Translations under genes and position numbers: made by a program | Origin: Peptococcaceae bacterium BICA1-7 | Lineage (GTDB): Bacteria > Bacillota > Desulfotomaculia > Desulfotomaculales > Desulfocucumaceae | Length of the DNA stretch: 64,000 bases | Reading direction: 5' to 3' | Assembly: GCA_000802095.1 (NCBI GenBank) | Contig: JUEB01000024.1 | Coordinates: forward strand, 1 to 64,000 | Notes under the pieces: generated by a model | Told to the model about the DNA's origin: nothing | Databases searched by the model: none | Seen by the model: the letters and a program-made list of their open reading frames with translations, nothing else | In this document: positions 4,923 to 13,515 of the stretch, one piece after another | Position numbering within the stretch: position 1 is the first letter of the stretch | Layout of the letters: the number at the start of each line of letters is the position of its first letter

Positions 4923-6113
4923 ATGAAAATGAACAAGAAGGTATTGGGGCTTTTAGGCACGGGCCATGCCATTACAGATATTAACCAGGGGGCTATAGCC
5001 ATGTTCCTGGCCTTTCTGCAGCCTGTTTTTGCCCTGAGCCAGACCCAGGTGGGACTGGCCATGCTGGCCTTTAACCTCAGCTCTTCAATAATCCAGCCTA
5101 TCTTCGGGGTGATCAGTGACCGCGTCCGGGCCATTTGGCTGATACCTCTGGGCTGCCTGCTGGCCGGTCTGGGCATGGCCCTCACAGGGCTCTCCTTTAA
5201 TTACGGCACTCTTCTGGGGGCGGCCCTTTTAAGCGGCCTGGGTGTTGCCGCCTACCATCCGGAGGGGTCCAAATTCGCCCGCTTTGCCAGCGGCTCTCTT
5301 AAAGGAACGGGTATGTCCCTGTTTTCAGTGGGGGGGAATATAGGCTTCGCGGCCGGGCCGGTGCTGGCCAGCCTTTTTTACGGGCTGGCGGGACTGCACG
5401 GATCAGTGGGATTCCTTGTGCTAAACGGTATAATGGCGCTTTTTTTATGGGCAGGCATCCCCACCATTGCGGCAGTGGGGGACTACGGAGCCGGCTCCTC
5501 TGCCCGCCGGTCATCCTCCGGTGGAGTGCGGCTGGATGCAAGGGCAATGATACCGGTTGTGCTGCTGGTAATGGTGGTTATTATGAGATCCTGGGTACAT
5601 ATGGGGCTGGTCACCTTTCTGCCCCAGTATTATGTCCACTATCTGCATCAGGGCGGGGCCTATGCTGCTGCCATAACCTCCATATTCCTCCTGGCCGGTG
5701 TATTTGGCACCCTGGCAGGGGGGCCGGCGGCAGATCGCTGGGGGCTTAAAACGGTCATTATTGGCTCCATGGCCATGACCATACCTCTATTATTACTTTT
5801 CAGCCGCCTAAGCGGCGTATGGGTAACTGTTGCGGTGTTCCTGGCGGGCTTTGCGGTCATTTCCACCTTTTCAGTTACCGTGGTGCTGGGGCAGGAGATG
5901 CTCCCCAACAATGTGGGGCTGGCTTCGGGCCTTATGCTGGGCTTCGGTATAGGCATGGGAGGGGTGGGCACCACCCTGCTGGGCTGGGTGGCAGACCGCT
6001 GGGGACTGCCAATGGTTTTCGAAGTAATGATAATTTTCCCTGTCCTGGGGCTGATCATTGCTTTTTTCCTGCCGGGAAGCAGCGCACTGGCCCGCAGGCA
6101 GAGTGCGGTCTGA
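4923..6113 (+). CDS. MFS transporter, fosmidomycin-resistance (Fsr) type
   Basis: Proton-driven efflux protein of the major facilitator superfamily, 396 aa with about 12 membrane segments. The N-terminus (GTGHAITDINQGAIAMFLAF), the ISDRVRAIW loop after helix 2 and AAYHPEGSKFA in helix 4-5 are typical of the Fsr-like subgroup. A second DRWG-type loop (AADRWGLKTV) opens the C-terminal half. The ATG at 4923 was chosen because an AAGGGA site lies 12 nt upstream; a TTG at 4875 is in frame but gives an unlikely hydrophilic extension. Monocistronic. The true substrate is unknown; Fsr homologues export fosmidomycin and other small acids. Confidence 0.85.
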   Translation: MKMNKKVLGLLGTGHAITDINQGAIAMFLAFLQPVFALSQTQVGLAMLAFNLSSSIIQPIFGVISDRVRAIWLIPLGCLLAGLGMALTGLSFNYGTLLGAALLSGLGVAAYHPEGSKFARFASGSLKGTGMSLFSVGGNIGFAAGPVLASLFYGLAGLHGSVGFLVLNGIMALFLWAGIPTIAAVGDYGAGSSARRSSSGGVRLDARAMIPVVLLVMVVIMRSWVHMGLVTFLPQYYVHYLHQGGAYAAAITSIFLLAGVFGTLAGGPAADRWGLKTVIIGSMAMTIPLLLLFSRLSGVWVTVAVFLAGFAVISTFSVTVVLGQEMLPNNVGLASGLMLGFGIGMGGVGTTLLGWVADRWGLPMVFEVMIIFPVLGLIIAFFLPGSSALARRQSAV

Positions 6114-6292
6114 CCTGCGGGCAGCCTGGGTAGCGCTCCTCCAGCTGTGGCGGGGAATTGGAGGGTTTATGGGCGGGGCCTCCAGTACAGGTTCGCATTT
6201 CCGGGAGAAAACCGGGTAGAGAGGCATTGACTTGAGGGACCTGCGGGATTATCCTGAGGTTAGCCAAAAAACAGCTGTTCGGGAAGGAAAAA

Positions 6293-7228
6293 ATGACTAC
6301 CAAAACTTTGGATGATAGAAAAGTTTTTATTACAGCACAGGTTGGCCCGGAGGAAAAGCTTTCCAAAATAGCCGGGTCCGGGGCAGACGGCATTGGCCTT
6401 CTGGAGGCGGAGTGTCCCCATAATCTTTCTCCGGTGGAGGCAGAGGATCAATATTTTGCTTTCTTTAGGGAAGCGGCCCAAACACCGGGCCAGGTGCCGG
6501 TAACCCTTTTACTGCCTGATTTAGGGGCAGAAATTAACGGGCCGGTTCCGAAGGTCCGGGGTATAAGGCATTTACTGTCCAGCCCCGGTATGTACACCCC
6601 CTTTCTGAGGGCAGTTTTACGTGCAGGGACCCATGGCTGCTATGAGCTGGCCCTGCCTATGGTCAGCCAGGTGGCTGAGGTATTGGCCTTTAAGGAGATT
6701 ATGGGAGAGGTCCGGGCCAGGCTGGAAAGTGAGGGTATCGGCTGTTCAACTCCGTCGGCCGGCGTGGTGGTGGAGGCCCCCTCTGTAATACCGGCTATAA
6801 AGACTTTGATGTTTGAGTCCATCTTTTTTTTAATAGGTCAAAACTATGTCAAATACCTGATGGCGGACCAGTCCATAAGTGGAGAGAGGGAGCAGGAGGC
6901 CTACTTCAGCCAGGCCTTTATGCTGCAGTCGCTGGCTATGGTGGAGAGCCTTAAAGGGCGAAAGGGAGGGGCCAGGATAAGCGCCCCGGCTGTGAGGGAC
7001 CCGGTGGCTGTGCCTATACTGGTGGGGATGGGCTTTAATCATTTAGTTGCGCCGCCTGAAATGATTCCCGCCATAAAAGGTAATGTGGAATCAATAAGCT
7101 TCCGGGAGGTCTGCCTGATAGCCTCGAAAACCACCTCTTACTGGGACCCGCACCAGGCCAGGGAGTACGCCAGGGAAAGGCTTGCCAGGCTGAAGTCCCT
7201 GCCCGGCCCCGGAAATAAAAAAACCTAA
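6293..7228 (+). CDS. PEP-utilising enzyme TIM-barrel protein, probably non-catalytic
   Basis: A 311-aa stand-alone version of the C-terminal PEP-binding barrel of PTS enzyme I and PEP synthase. Family landmarks are GADGIGLLEAE (residues ~30-40), RGIRHLL, a PFLRAVLRAGTHG helix, LALPMVSQVAEV, GVVVEAPSVIPA and PILVGMGFNHLVAPP. Several key residues are changed. The arginine of the enzyme I YRTEF motif is lost, the arginine of RTxDIGGDK is replaced by leucine (LLLPDLGAE), GTNDL has become GQNYV, the VDRG arginine is gone, and the catalytic cysteine of CGE is alanine (ISAPAVRD). There is no swivelling phosphohistidine domain. A sensory, structural or altered-ligand role is inferred. The next gene, a DUF401 permease, starts 16 nt later, so the two form an operon. 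Confidence 0.75.
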   Translation: MTTKTLDDRKVFITAQVGPEEKLSKIAGSGADGIGLLEAECPHNLSPVEAEDQYFAFFREAAQTPGQVPVTLLLPDLGAEINGPVPKVRGIRHLLSSPGMYTPFLRAVLRAGTHGCYELALPMVSQVAEVLAFKEIMGEVRARLESEGIGCSTPSAGVVVEAPSVIPAIKTLMFESIFFLIGQNYVKYLMADQSISGEREQEAYFSQAFMLQSLAMVESLKGRKGGARISAPAVRDPVAVPILVGMGFNHLVAPPEMIPAIKGNVESISFREVCLIASKTTSYWDPHQAREYARERLARLKSLPGPGNKKT

Positions 7229-7244
7229 GGCGAGGTACTACTAA

Positions 7245-8492
7245 ATGCTGCCTGTAATAAAAATGGCTGCAGTATTTGCTCTGGTTGTATTAATGCTGCA
7301 AAGGAAAATAAACCTTGGCGTCACCATGATGGCAGCCGCCCTGGCACTGGGGCTTCTTTTCGGGATGGGCCTGGTTTCCATAATAAAACAGGCCGGGCTG
7401 ACTTTTGCTGATAGCGGAACTTTAACACTTATGCTGGCCCTTATTCTTATAATGGTGCTGGAATCGGTAATGCGGCGGTCCGGTATGCTGGGGGACATGA
7501 CCGGCTCCATATTCCTTCTTCACTGGAACCCCAAGGTGCTTACGGCCGCCATACCAGCCATTATCGGCTTTCTTCCCTCTGCCGGGGGGGCCAGATTTTC
7601 TGCCCCCCTCGTGGAGCAGGCCATGACGGGATCGTCATACCGGGCCGAGGAAAAGGTTTTTATTAACTACTGGTTCAGGCATGTATGGGAGTACTCCCTC
7701 CCTCTATATCCGGGCATTATACTGGCGGCCCAGCTGTCGGGAGTGCCACTGGGCAGAATAATACTCTGGCAGTGGCCCTTTACTGTTGTATGGGCTCTCC
7801 TGGGCTACTGGCTGGTGTTTAGAGGTAAAAAAATGGAAATCTGCAGTTCTACCCCTGTCCAGCAGCCTTTAGATAAGAGGCCCATTGTGCTGCTGATCTC
7901 CAGCATATGGCCCATACTGGCCACGGTGGGGCTGGTGATAGCCCATGTTCCCATAGTCCTGGCCCTTTTGGCGGTACTGGCGGCGCTTATGGCGCAGAAG
8001 AAATACCCGCTTATACAGGTGTGGGATACATTAAGAGAGCCTATGACTGCCGGGATAGTATTCCTTATCTGGGGAACCATGGCCTTTAAGGATATACTTC
8101 AGGTGTCCGGCGCCGTATCCCAGGTGAGCGGCATATTTATTTCCTCGGGAGTGCCCCCCTATGCGGTGGCCATTGTACTGCCGCTCATGGCGGGTATTCT
8201 CACCGGGCTGGTGCAGGCCTGCATCGGGGTGTCCTTCCCCCTGGTGCTGGGAGTTGTAGAGCCAACGGCGGCCTATGTGATGCTGGCCTATGTATCCGCA
8301 GTGGTGGGGGTTATGATGTCCCCGGTGCACCTGTGCTTTATTCTGACCAATGACTATTTCCAGGCGGATTTTTTTAGGTCGTACAGATCCCTTATAGCAC
8401 CCAGTCTCTTGGTGCTGGCTGGGGCGGTAACCCTGTTCGGCTTTGCCAGCAGCAGGGGAGTGATGGCATGGAGCCTGCACCTGCTGCATTAA
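7245..8492 (+). CDS. DUF401 family membrane permease
   Basis: Integral membrane protein of 415 aa with about ten hydrophobic segments. The PSAGGARFSAPLVEQAM segment (near residue 107) and YPGIILAAQLSG are typical of the DUF401 family of uncharacterised transporters, which are distantly related to GntP-like anion carriers. ATG with a GAGGTAC site 16 nt after the preceding stop. Its likely partner is the enzyme I-like barrel upstream, suggesting that a solute is imported and sensed or bound in the cytoplasm. No substrate has been assigned to the family to my knowledge. Confidence 0.82.
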   Translation: MLPVIKMAAVFALVVLMLQRKINLGVTMMAAALALGLLFGMGLVSIIKQAGLTFADSGTLTLMLALILIMVLESVMRRSGMLGDMTGSIFLLHWNPKVLTAAIPAIIGFLPSAGGARFSAPLVEQAMTGSSYRAEEKVFINYWFRHVWEYSLPLYPGIILAAQLSGVPLGRIILWQWPFTVVWALLGYWLVFRGKKMEICSSTPVQQPLDKRPIVLLISSIWPILATVGLVIAHVPIVLALLAVLAALMAQKKYPLIQVWDTLREPMTAGIVFLIWGTMAFKDILQVSGAVSQVSGIFISSGVPPYAVAIVLPLMAGILTGLVQACIGVSFPLVLGVVEPTAAYVMLAYVSAVVGVMMSPVHLCFILTNDYFQADFFRSYRSLIAPSLLVLAGAVTLFGFASSRGVMAWSLHLLH

Positions 8493-8655: not shown

Positions 8656-11600
8656 TTGTTAAGATCAAAAGCCTTCCTTATACTCATCTGTTTCATAATA
8701 ATTTCTGTGGTGTTGCCTCCCGGCAATTCATATGCCGGCCTGACGGACTTCAAAGATCTTACCATGACCAGCCCGGAATATCCCTATATAAAATTTCTGA
8801 TTGAAAAAGATTTGATAAAAGGATACCCGGACGGCAATTTCTTGCCGGAGGGGCAAATCACCAGGGCCGAGGCGGCTGCCCTTCTGGTTAAGGCCGCAGG
8901 GCTTTCCCCGGAAAGAACCCCGGGCGCTGCTTTTATTGATGTAAGGCCGGAACACTGGGCCTGCGGTATTATCGAGTCTGCTGCTGCTGCCGGTATTATC
9001 AGGGGTGATCCTGATGGGCTCTTCAGGCCGGAAGATCCCGTCAGCCGGGCAGAGGTTGCTGTTCTGTTGCTTAAGCTGACCCAGGAGCCCCTTCCCTCAG
9101 TTGAACTGCCCCAATATGTTGCCGATGTGGGACCTGCTCATTGGGCGGGCCAATCAATTGCAGCCTCTTTAAGGGCCGGACTGCTTACCGGGGCTGATGG
9201 ATACAGCTTTTTGCCGGATCGCCCGGCCACCCGCGCCGAGGTGGCCAGGGGTCTGGCTATGATGATCAATCTGGCCCCAGAGCATAGAGCCGTGCCGCTG
9301 ACAGGTGTCCTGTCGCCAATTGAGGGTGAAGTTTTTGTAAAATACTCAATGGATTACACCAGGGTTAAAGATAAGGCCCAATGCACGGCGGGTGTGACGG
9401 TCAAGACCGGCCCCGGAGGGAGAGCCGAGATACGGTTCCCCGATGGATCCGGACTGCTGCTGGAGGAAAATACACTCCTCACTATAAAAGAGGCCAGGGG
9501 CCAGTCTACCATACTGAGGGACGGGTCACCGGGCGCTGTTATTGACTATTTGGAACTGGAACTGCCCCAGGGAAGGATTTTCGGGGGACTGGCGGCAGGA
9601 TACATATACGGGCAGGAGCAGTCCGGCCTTAAGGACAGTGGGCTGCCGGCGGCAAGGGCAGCGGAGCCGGGGGGTAAGTTGCTGGCCTCGACCTCTCTGC
9701 TGCCACCTGGCGTCTGGCCCAGTCTGGCCGTGGAGGACAACGTAGAACTGCCCTGGTGGGAAGAGGGCTACGATAAGCATGTGCGTGTACAGGTGGATAT
9801 GCCCTGGGGAGTGGCCGGCATAAGGGGCACCTTCTGGATGAACACTGTAAGCAGCCAGCAGCAGTCCACCAGTGTAATTGACGGCGCCGCCAGCCTGACT
9901 TCCAACGGTGTTACAGTGGGGGTGTCCTCCGGTCAGGAAAGTATAATCAATTCTCCATCATCCGCTCCGTCCCAGCCGGCAGGAATGACAGCCGGCCAGC
10001 AAAGGGCCTGGGCCGAGGTAAGCGCATGGGTGCAGGAAAGGGCCAGCGCTATACAAAACGCTGCTCCGGTGGTGAGCCCGGCAGCACCTGTGTTTAATAC
10101 CCTTCAGCCCTTACAGCCCCAGCAGTCGATCCTGCCCCCGCTGCCCCCGCTGCCGGATTTAAGCGGGCTGTTGGAATCAATGGACCAGACTACGGACCAG
10201 ACTACCACGGAGGTAACAAATACCAACCAGTCTGGCAGTCAGGATTCCGGCAGTCAGGATAATGACACTGTTTTACTGGGCTCCATGGGAAGCCTTACCG
10301 TAACGGTGGGTCAGCAGATGTCAGTAACGGCAGCTGTTTCCCCAGCTGATGCCGTTCTTACGGCTATCTCCAGTGATACCGGAATTGCCGTGGTTTCTGT
10401 GACGGACAAAACAATATATGTGGACGGAGTGGCCAATGGTACGGCCAATATCACGGTTACAGCCAGCAAATCCGGCTATGACACCGCCGAGATTACTTTC
10501 CCGGTAACCGTAAACAACGCCGGCCAGGTGTCCAGCCCTACTGCCATTCCTCCGGCCGGAACGTATAGCGGCGTCCAGTCAGTATCGCTCTCCACCCTGA
10601 CTGACGGGGCCGACATATGGTATACCACTGACGGCAGTGACCCCACCACCAGCGGCGCCAGGCAGCACTATAGCACCGCCTTTACTGTGGGGGACACTAA
10701 AACCGTCAAAGCCTATGCGGTTAAAGCAGGCCTTTCTGACAGCGATGTGGTTTCTTTTAACTATGTAATTAACATAAATAACACTATTTCACTGAACCCC
10801 ATAGGCAGCCTTATCGTAGAGATGGGTAAACAGGAGTGGGTAGTGGCTGCTGTTGACCCGACTGAAGCAGTTATCACGGCTTTTTCCAGTGATACAGGAA
10901 TAGCTGAAGTATCTGTGACAGGCAAAACTATATATGTGGACGGAGTGTCCAGCGGTACGGCAAATATAACTGTTACAGCCAGTATGGCCGGCTATGACAG
11001 TGCTCAAGTCAGTTTCGCGGTAACCGTTTCACTGCCTGCGGTGCCGGTGGCGGGCTGGTATACTCACAGCCTGATGTCAAAGGATGATGGGACTGTATGG
11101 GCCTGGGGAGATAACGGTTACGGCCAGATTGGCGACGGAACAGCCAGCGATCGCTATAGTCCGATGCAGGTCCTTGGCGCCGGCGGGGCGGGCTATCTTG
11201 ACAATGTTACCGCCCTTGACGCAGGGAGATATCACTCGGTGGCGCTGAAGACAGACGGAACAGTATGGGCCTGGGGAAGAAATAACATCGGGCAGCTGGG
11301 CAACGGCACTACTATAAACAGCTATACTCCGGTGCAGGTAAAAGGCCCCTCGGGAACAGGCTTCCTTACGGGTATAGTGGCCATTGCCTCCGGCTATCAG
11401 CATGTCGCTGCCCTCAGGAGTGACGGGGCTGTTTTTGCCTGGGGGAGTAATAACAGTGGTGAGCTTGGCAACGGCACAGAAAATGAAAGCAGTTTACCGG
11501 TGCAGGTGCTGTCCCCTGACGGAGCGGGCTACCTTACCGATATTATTGCCATAGCCGCCGGTAATCAGCACACCCTTGCCCTGCAGAGGAGCGGGAAGGT

Positions 11601-13515
11601 ATGGGTATGGGGGTCCAATGGCCTGGGTGAATTGGGAATAGGGGCCGTTGATTTTGCCAGCCACCCTTACCCGGTGCAGGTTACGGGATTAGACAGTTAC
11701 AACATATCGGCCATCTCAGCGGGAGAGTTCTTATCCATGGCCCTGAGCAGCGATGAAGGGGGCAAGATCTGGACATGGGGGGATAACGGAGTTGGCCCTT
11801 CAGGCGGCCTGGGCGGTCTGGGCGACGGAACACTGGCGTACTACAGGTCTTCACCCGTGCAGGTGGTGGATGTGGGAGGCGTAGGTCCCCTGACCGGAGT
11901 ATCGGCTATTGCCGCGGGGAACTATTTCACAGTGGCCTTAAAGGGGGATGGAACTGTCTTGACCTGGGGTGAGAATGAATACGGTGAACTGGGGATCGGC
12001 TCCTATGATTATGACGCTCACCCTATTCCCGTTCAGGTGCCGACGCTTTCAGGGATAACCGGCATATATGCAGGGTACCAGCATGTCTTTGCAAGTAATG
12101 ATGCCGGTGATGTGTGGGGCTGGGGCACCAATTCCAGCGGTCAGCTGGGGAATGGGACAACAAGCACCAGAGTAGTCTCTCCGATCTTGCTGCACAGCCT
12201 GGACGGGGCGGTGGCGGCGAGCCCGCTGACAATTGTTATGGCCAGTGTGGCGGCCGATGGTTTTGGGGGAGACGGGTACAGTGAGTATCCTTCTATAAGC
12301 TCCGACGGGCGTTATGTGGCCTTTTACTCCGATGCGTCCGACCTGGTGGCGGGTGATGGCAATTCCACCGATGATATATTCGTCAGGGATTTGCAGAACA
12401 ATAGCACCGAAAGGATAAGCGTTTCTGCAGGGGGGACGGACTCAAACAGCAACAGCTACCTGCCTTCGCTCAGCGCGGATGGGCGTTACGTGTCCTTCAT
12501 TTCGGCTGCCAGCAACCTGGTGGCCGGGGACAGCAACAATAAATGGGATGTTTTTGTCCGGGACAGGCAGTTGGGAAGCACATACCGGGTAAGCGTTCCC
12601 GACCTTTCCTCCCAGGGGACGCTGGGAAGTGAGGCCAATAATGACTCCTATGCCAGCTATTTTACTATGTTTTGCCCGTCTGTAAGCAGCGATGGGCGCT
12701 ACATTGCCTTTGCCTCCCAGGCCAGCAACCTTGTGCTGGGGGATACCAACGCCACAACCGACGTTTTCGTACATGACCGGCAGACCGGCGAAACTGTCAG
12801 TGCCAGCGTATACGGCAGCGGCACCGGGGGCAACGACTGGAGCATGAAGCCATCCATCAGCGCCGATGGGCGTTATGTAGCCTTTATATCGAACGCCAGC
12901 AACCTGGTGGCCGGGGATACTAACAACAATCCTGATGTGTTCGTGCGGGACCTGTTTTCTGGTGAGACAGTGAGGGTGAGTGTGGCCGGTGACGGCACTC
13001 AGGGAAACTATTTTAGCGGCGCAATTTTCTATCCCTCAGATCACGAGGGCAATGTATCCATCAGCGCCGACGGCCGGTATGTGGTCTTTGACTCTCTGGC
13101 TAACAACCTTGCTCCCGGAGACACCAATGGCGCCACGGACATATTTGTACATGACCGTGACACGGATGAGGACGGGATATATGACGAGCCCGGGGCGGTA
13201 TCCACAGCCATGGTCAGCGTATCCAGCGCTGGGGACCAGGCCAACAGCTACAGCGAAAAGCCGTCAATCAGTCCCAGCGGCCGCTATGTGGCCTTTGTGT
13301 CGCAGGCTACAAACCTGGCGGCCGGAGCAACTACTTCCATAGACAGGATATATATCCGGGACCTGCAGCTTAATACCACCGAAAGGGCAAGCGCTTATAC
13401 AGGCCGCTGGCCCTGTGTGTCCAACGACGGCAGGGTGGCCTTCTACTCGGCCTCCACCAATTTGCTGCCCGAGGATACCAATGTGTATAATGATGTTTTC
13501 GTTCGACTCCCTTAA
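8656..13515 (+). CDS. Giant secreted SLH-FecR-Ig-RCC1-PD40 surface protein
   Basis: An exported 1619-aa surface protein. TTG start with GGGAGA 8 nt upstream. Residues 1-28 are a signal peptide. Three SLH domains (about 32-83, 84-143, 154-206) should anchor it to secondary cell-wall polymer. A FecR-like domain follows (about 218-420), then a Pro/Gln-rich linker. Two near-duplicate Ig-like modules (about 540-623 and 713-793, both with TIYVDGV.. GTANITVTAS) flank a chitobiase-C-terminal-like module (625-701, WYTTDGSDPTT). Seven RCC1 repeats (about 795-1188, such as WAWGRNNIGQLGNGT) make a full propeller. Seven PD40/TolB-like blades follow (about 1205-1619, SxDGRYVAF). Function unknown; adhesion or carbohydrate/protein binding is inferred. 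It is monocistronic with a terminator after it. Confidence 0.9.
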   Translation: MLRSKAFLILICFIIISVVLPPGNSYAGLTDFKDLTMTSPEYPYIKFLIEKDLIKGYPDGNFLPEGQITRAEAAALLVKAAGLSPERTPGAAFIDVRPEHWACGIIESAAAAGIIRGDPDGLFRPEDPVSRAEVAVLLLKLTQEPLPSVELPQYVADVGPAHWAGQSIAASLRAGLLTGADGYSFLPDRPATRAEVARGLAMMINLAPEHRAVPLTGVLSPIEGEVFVKYSMDYTRVKDKAQCTAGVTVKTGPGGRAEIRFPDGSGLLLEENTLLTIKEARGQSTILRDGSPGAVIDYLELELPQGRIFGGLAAGYIYGQEQSGLKDSGLPAARAAEPGGKLLASTSLLPPGVWPSLAVEDNVELPWWEEGYDKHVRVQVDMPWGVAGIRGTFWMNTVSSQQQSTSVIDGAASLTSNGVTVGVSSGQESIINSPSSAPSQPAGMTAGQQRAWAEVSAWVQERASAIQNAAPVVSPAAPVFNTLQPLQPQQSILPPLPPLPDLSGLLESMDQTTDQTTTEVTNTNQSGSQDSGSQDNDTVLLGSMGSLTVTVGQQMSVTAAVSPADAVLTAISSDTGIAVVSVTDKTIYVDGVANGTANITVTASKSGYDTAEITFPVTVNNAGQVSSPTAIPPAGTYSGVQSVSLSTLTDGADIWYTTDGSDPTTSGARQHYSTAFTVGDTKTVKAYAVKAGLSDSDVVSFNYVININNTISLNPIGSLIVEMGKQEWVVAAVDPTEAVITAFSSDTGIAEVSVTGKTIYVDGVSSGTANITVTASMAGYDSAQVSFAVTVSLPAVPVAGWYTHSLMSKDDGTVWAWGDNGYGQIGDGTASDRYSPMQVLGAGGAGYLDNVTALDAGRYHSVALKTDGTVWAWGRNNIGQLGNGTTINSYTPVQVKGPSGTGFLTGIVAIASGYQHVAALRSDGAVFAWGSNNSGELGNGTENESSLPVQVLSPDGAGYLTDIIAIAAGNQHTLALQRSGKVWVWGSNGLGELGIGAVDFASHPYPVQVTGLDSYNISAISAGEFLSMALSSDEGGKIWTWGDNGVGPSGGLGGLGDGTLAYYRSSPVQVVDVGGVGPLTGVSAIAAGNYFTVALKGDGTVLTWGENEYGELGIGSYDYDAHPIPVQVPTLSGITGIYAGYQHVFASNDAGDVWGWGTNSSGQLGNGTTSTRVVSPILLHSLDGAVAASPLTIVMASVAADGFGGDGYSEYPSISSDGRYVAFYSDASDLVAGDGNSTDDIFVRDLQNNSTERISVSAGGTDSNSNSYLPSLSADGRYVSFISAASNLVAGDSNNKWDVFVRDRQLGSTYRVSVPDLSSQGTLGSEANNDSYASYFTMFCPSVSSDGRYIAFASQASNLVLGDTNATTDVFVHDRQTGETVSASVYGSGTGGNDWSMKPSISADGRYVAFISNASNLVAGDTNNNPDVFVRDLFSGETVRVSVAGDGTQGNYFSGAIFYPSDHEGNVSISADGRYVVFDSLANNLAPGDTNGATDIFVHDRDTDEDGIYDEPGAVSTAMVSVSSAGDQANSYSEKPSISPSGRYVAFVSQATNLAAGATTSIDRIYIRDLQLNTTERASAYTGRWPCVSNDGRVAFYSASTNLLPEDTNVYNDVFVRLP

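Follow-up and report, generated by a model that had tools for sequence, protein, structure and literature searches.

The window analysed here, a 64,000-nt stretch of DNA from Peptococcaceae bacterium BICA1-7, contains a gene for a protein resembling the C-terminal barrel of PTS Enzyme I (EI), followed by a gene for a DUF401 permease. This arrangement raises the question of what an isolated barrel of this kind may do, and whether it acts together with its neighbour. A sequence-only reading of the region had proposed that the barrel is a pseudoenzyme sensor of PEP, pyruvate or some other ligand, through which transport is gated. Its coordinates and the 16-nt spacing between the two genes proved right: both are encoded on the same strand, and each is preceded by a Shine-Dalgarno-like stretch, the second of which overlaps the barrel stop codon (TAA, 7226-7228). 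Features of the locus are summarized in Table 1.

Table 1. Features of the barrel-permease locus; residue replacements are given relative to Enzyme I.
Feature	Position (nt)	Strand	Basis
Stand-alone degenerate Enzyme I C-terminal (PEP-utiliser) barrel, 311 aa	6293..7228	+	PF02896, PDB 2bg5, residue table
DUF401/TIGR00529 multi-pass permease, 415 aa	7245..8492	+	PF04165, TIGR00529, weak GntP similarity
Shine-Dalgarno-like GGGAAGGA, 5′ of barrel start	6281..6288	+	Read from sequence
Shine-Dalgarno-like AAGGCGAGGT, 5′ of DUF401 start, overlapping barrel stop	7227..7236	+	Read from sequence
EI R296 replaced by Glu38	6404..6406 (codon)	+	Alignment column
EI R332 replaced by Leu73	6509..6511 (codon)	+	Alignment column
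EI catalytic C502 replaced by Ser230	6980..6982 (codon)	+	Alignment column

PF02896 is the sole domain of the barrel protein (residues 3-268, 1.6e-25; 90.3 bits against a curated cut-off of 22.8). The permease likewise passes the curated cut-off of PF04165 (2.9e-55; 188.7 bits, cut-off 24); its TIGR00529 match (2.6e-70) stays under the cut-off of that model, and its similarity to GntP is weak (0.061 here, 0.00016 in the best relative). The DUF401 profile had no matches in the PDB. An MFS gene ends at position 6113, 179 nt upstream of the barrel gene, and the second genome that has the pair lacks a counterpart at this upstream place. The scan for promoter- and terminator-like sites performed near chance level, and it placed no terminator-like site in the 16-nt gap. 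Directly 3′ of the permease (8656-13515), the window encodes a 1619-aa surface-layer-homology-like protein with RCC1-like repeats, and a shorter counterpart of this protein occupies the same place in L006.

The assignment of the product to the EI-type barrel fold is supported by the PF02896 and 2bg5 matches and by profile comparison. Among solved structures the best match is to the EI C-terminal domain (2bg5/2xz9, 1.6e-28; profile-profile E 4e-63), and the likeness to this domain (PDB 2bg5/2xz7/2xz9; C-terminal part of TIGR01417) extends over the whole length of the barrel, including the landmarks GxxGIGLL, GIR and GVVVExPS. The protein nevertheless scores only 75.9 against the complete EI model TIGR01417, whose cut-off is 341.7. 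The same Pfam domain occurs in the barrel of pyruvate phosphate dikinase and PEP synthase, but the match of the window protein to this barrel is weak (0.15) and the other dikinase domains are absent. AlphaFold, run on a two-row alignment (window protein and L006), gave a pLDDT of 37, too low for a ligand site to be judged from the model.

Catalytic residues were compared in an alignment of 29 barrels with catalytic EIs of the same class, with residues numbered as in E. coli Enzyme I. Six catalytic positions were considered (R296, R332, E431, D455, R465 and C502), of which five are replaced in the window barrel and only the Mg-ligand glutamate is kept. Both substrate arginines have been lost, as had been claimed from the sequence, and so have the GTNDL aspartate (D455, removed by a one-residue deletion in this loop) and the VDRG arginine (R465, now Gln193). 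The catalytic cysteine is also replaced, although the residue aligned with it is a serine and not the alanine named in the sequence-only reading. Retained are E431 (Glu161), R361 (Arg92) and D335 (Asp76). With this set of residues, the barrel would be unable to carry out the EI reaction.

The EI N-terminal domain (EIN), reported missing from the protein, is absent from the whole genome too. Neither this domain nor HPr was found there at curated cut-offs, and the genome therefore has no PTS. PF02896 matches only one other gene there, an unbroken frame of 905 codons that aligns weakly with the window protein and that we take to be pyruvate phosphate dikinase.

To what family, then, does such a protein belong? 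When 113 genomes of the class (Desulfotomaculia-type Firmicutes) were searched with a profile, barrel-only genes turned up in 21 of them, 16 of the window type and five of a second type. EI and HPr are both absent from 19 of these 21 genomes, and in two genomes a barrel-only gene coexists with an intact EI. A maximum-likelihood tree separates all stand-alone barrels from the EIs by a branch with 95/88 support; the window-type group as such is weak (84/53), while the set of five that includes the window protein is firm (99/98). One homologue (L044, genome G072) carries a long N-terminal extension without a Pfam match, which is probably due to a wrong start. The five proteins of the second group (L056-L060) resemble the window type in being barrel-only, about 300 aa long and equipped with a conserved IASK motif near the C-terminus, but they keep the R296, R332, C502 and E431 positions and lack D455 and R465. 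In three of the five, a gene for a Crp/Fnr-type regulator is found 26-70 nt further on. The analysis also covered a sample of 398 genomes from the phylum; outside the class, the matches listed there had full-length EI frames of at least 545 aa. The viral contigs scanned yielded no relatives of EI. Taken together, sequence comparison places the window gene in what appears to be an old, PTS-independent family of free-standing EI-type barrels, found here across one class.

Full-length EIs with intact catalytic residues were also observed in genomes without an HPr match, i.e. G001 (L101:3220-5058) and G060-G066 (e.g. L030 and L031). Those included in the tree form one clade (100/100), and their genes lie in a small conserved cluster composed of an ORF of ~131 aa, EI, an ORF of ~305 aa and an ORF of 117 aa.

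The barrel gene is under constraint, somewhat less than its DUF401 neighbour. For the window/L006 barrel pair dN/dS was 0.35 (NG86) or 0.29 (YN00), compared with 0.22 or 0.21 for the DUF401 pair; three other barrel pairs gave 0.16-0.24. Such purifying selection disfavours a decaying pseudogene, and the idea that the barrel is a functionless remnant of a lost Enzyme I is barely credible: EI and HPr are indeed gone from the window genome and the barrel evolves fast, with a dN/dS above that of DUF401, but the ratio is well under 1, the frames are open in the 16 window-type relatives, the clade is separate from EI, and two genomes keep a barrel-only gene alongside an intact EI.

A more serious alternative, which we still regard as unlikely, is that the barrel still catalyses a reaction, though a changed one and with a different residue set, for instance as a lyase or mutase of the wider PEP/pyruvate barrel superfamily. 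This superfamily is known for divergent chemistries, and the retention of Glu161, at the Mg-ligand position, and of Arg92 would fit such a role, as would the selection acting on the gene. Against it speaks the variability of the old active-site columns among the 16 window-type proteins: position 296 is occupied by E, D, S or T and position 502 by S, A, T, E or Y, positions 455 and 465 hold various residues, and some family members have D in place of E431. No new invariant acid/base set is present in these columns. The residues that are invariant in the window-type proteins are Arg106, Ala107, Gly157, Pro163, Phe178, Lys279 and Tyr292, and Arg223 and Ser282 are nearly so; of these, Arg223, Lys279 and Ser282 are absent from EI and represent family-specific conservation, mainly in the C-terminal part. 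As this conservation lies outside the variable old catalytic columns, it favours an interaction role over a relocated active site, and we infer that the scaffold has been kept for binding or interaction. Outside the window's family, R332, R358, R361 and E431 are retained in many relatives, so some of the anion/metal site could still accommodate PEP-like ligands or even support a different catalysis.

Whether the pseudoenzyme could respond to PEP, pyruvate or a similar ligand by gating the neighbouring permease, as half of a dedicated transport system, depends on how firmly the genes are linked. In both genomes with the pair (G000 and G002) they lie 16-17 nt apart on one strand, and both barrel and DUF401 are under purifying selection. 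The adjacency, however, occurs in only these two of the 16 relatives, both members of the window's genus, and the flanking genes are common to the two genomes as well, so the arrangement may be plain synteny within a shared block. DUF401 was found in 11 genomes of the class, four of them with a barrel, and this co-occurrence is not significant (hypergeometric P = 0.12). None of the other class DUF401 genes examined has a barrel beside it. Seven class homologues from outside the genus are 49-60% identical to the window permease but, unlike it, have no barrel gene alongside. In the phylum sample DUF401 is present in 125 of 398 genomes, and among the matches listed neither a barrel nor an EI lies within 10 kb of it, except in the window itself. 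The sequence-only reading had named the lack of a conserved DUF401 neighbourhood as a refutation of its proposal, and the outcome, with adjacency confined to G000 and G002 of one genus, refutes it on these terms. The barrel-permease link is lineage-specific and optional, and a conserved, dedicated two-part system is quite improbable.

The barrel has other neighbours elsewhere. It is placed after an M50-protease-like gene in genus g2, of the same family as the window, after an aldolase-like gene in G034, and after a 232-aa gene near murJ in seven genomes of two families. The 232-aa gene was considered as a specific partner and rejected, as it occurs in 72 of the 113 class genomes and lies on another contig in the window genome. 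In several genomes of family f4, a double dynamin-like GTPase of 919 aa (L043:5236-7992) is encoded just 3′ of the barrel.

Several DUF401 genes of the class are situated beside ORFs that, by eye, resemble carboxylate-metabolism or carboxylate-uptake genes, e.g. those for aconitase-type and racemase/PrpF-type enzymes. Together with the weak GntP similarity, these neighbours make a carboxylate the best guess for the permease substrate, which would also suit a sensing and gating system. The DUF401 permease is thus likely to be a carboxylate transporter, probably co-transcribed with the barrel in the window's genus. Our literature searches, which left most subscription journals uncovered, retrieved nothing relevant on degenerate EI barrels or on DUF401, PF04165 and TIGR00529.

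The reading that we hold with good confidence is that of a PTS-independent, free-standing EI-type barrel that does not transfer phosphate and probably acts as a non-catalytic binder of a ligand or partner, its link to the permease being a genus-level and optional one. The pseudoenzyme part of the original proposal remains reasonable given the loss of the phosphotransfer residues, the selection on the gene and the lack of a PTS; its extension to a two-part system does not hold beyond one genus. The protein is probably a ligand-binding or protein-interacting pseudoenzyme, most likely soluble, and would bind a small metabolite of the carboxylate or phosphate type, another protein, or both. More tentatively, and with doubts prevailing, catalytically dead EI barrels in PTS-free bacteria might constitute a metabolite-sensing or adaptor module whose partners differ from lineage to lineage and include a carboxylate permease.

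The name "PEP-protein phosphotransferase" for such a barrel would wrongly imply the presence of a PTS. Of greater interest than the proposed two-part system is the broader group of degenerate EI barrels that stand alone in bacteria without a PTS. It shows that the half of Enzyme I that binds PEP can be maintained in such bacteria as a separate, apparently non-phosphotransferring protein.
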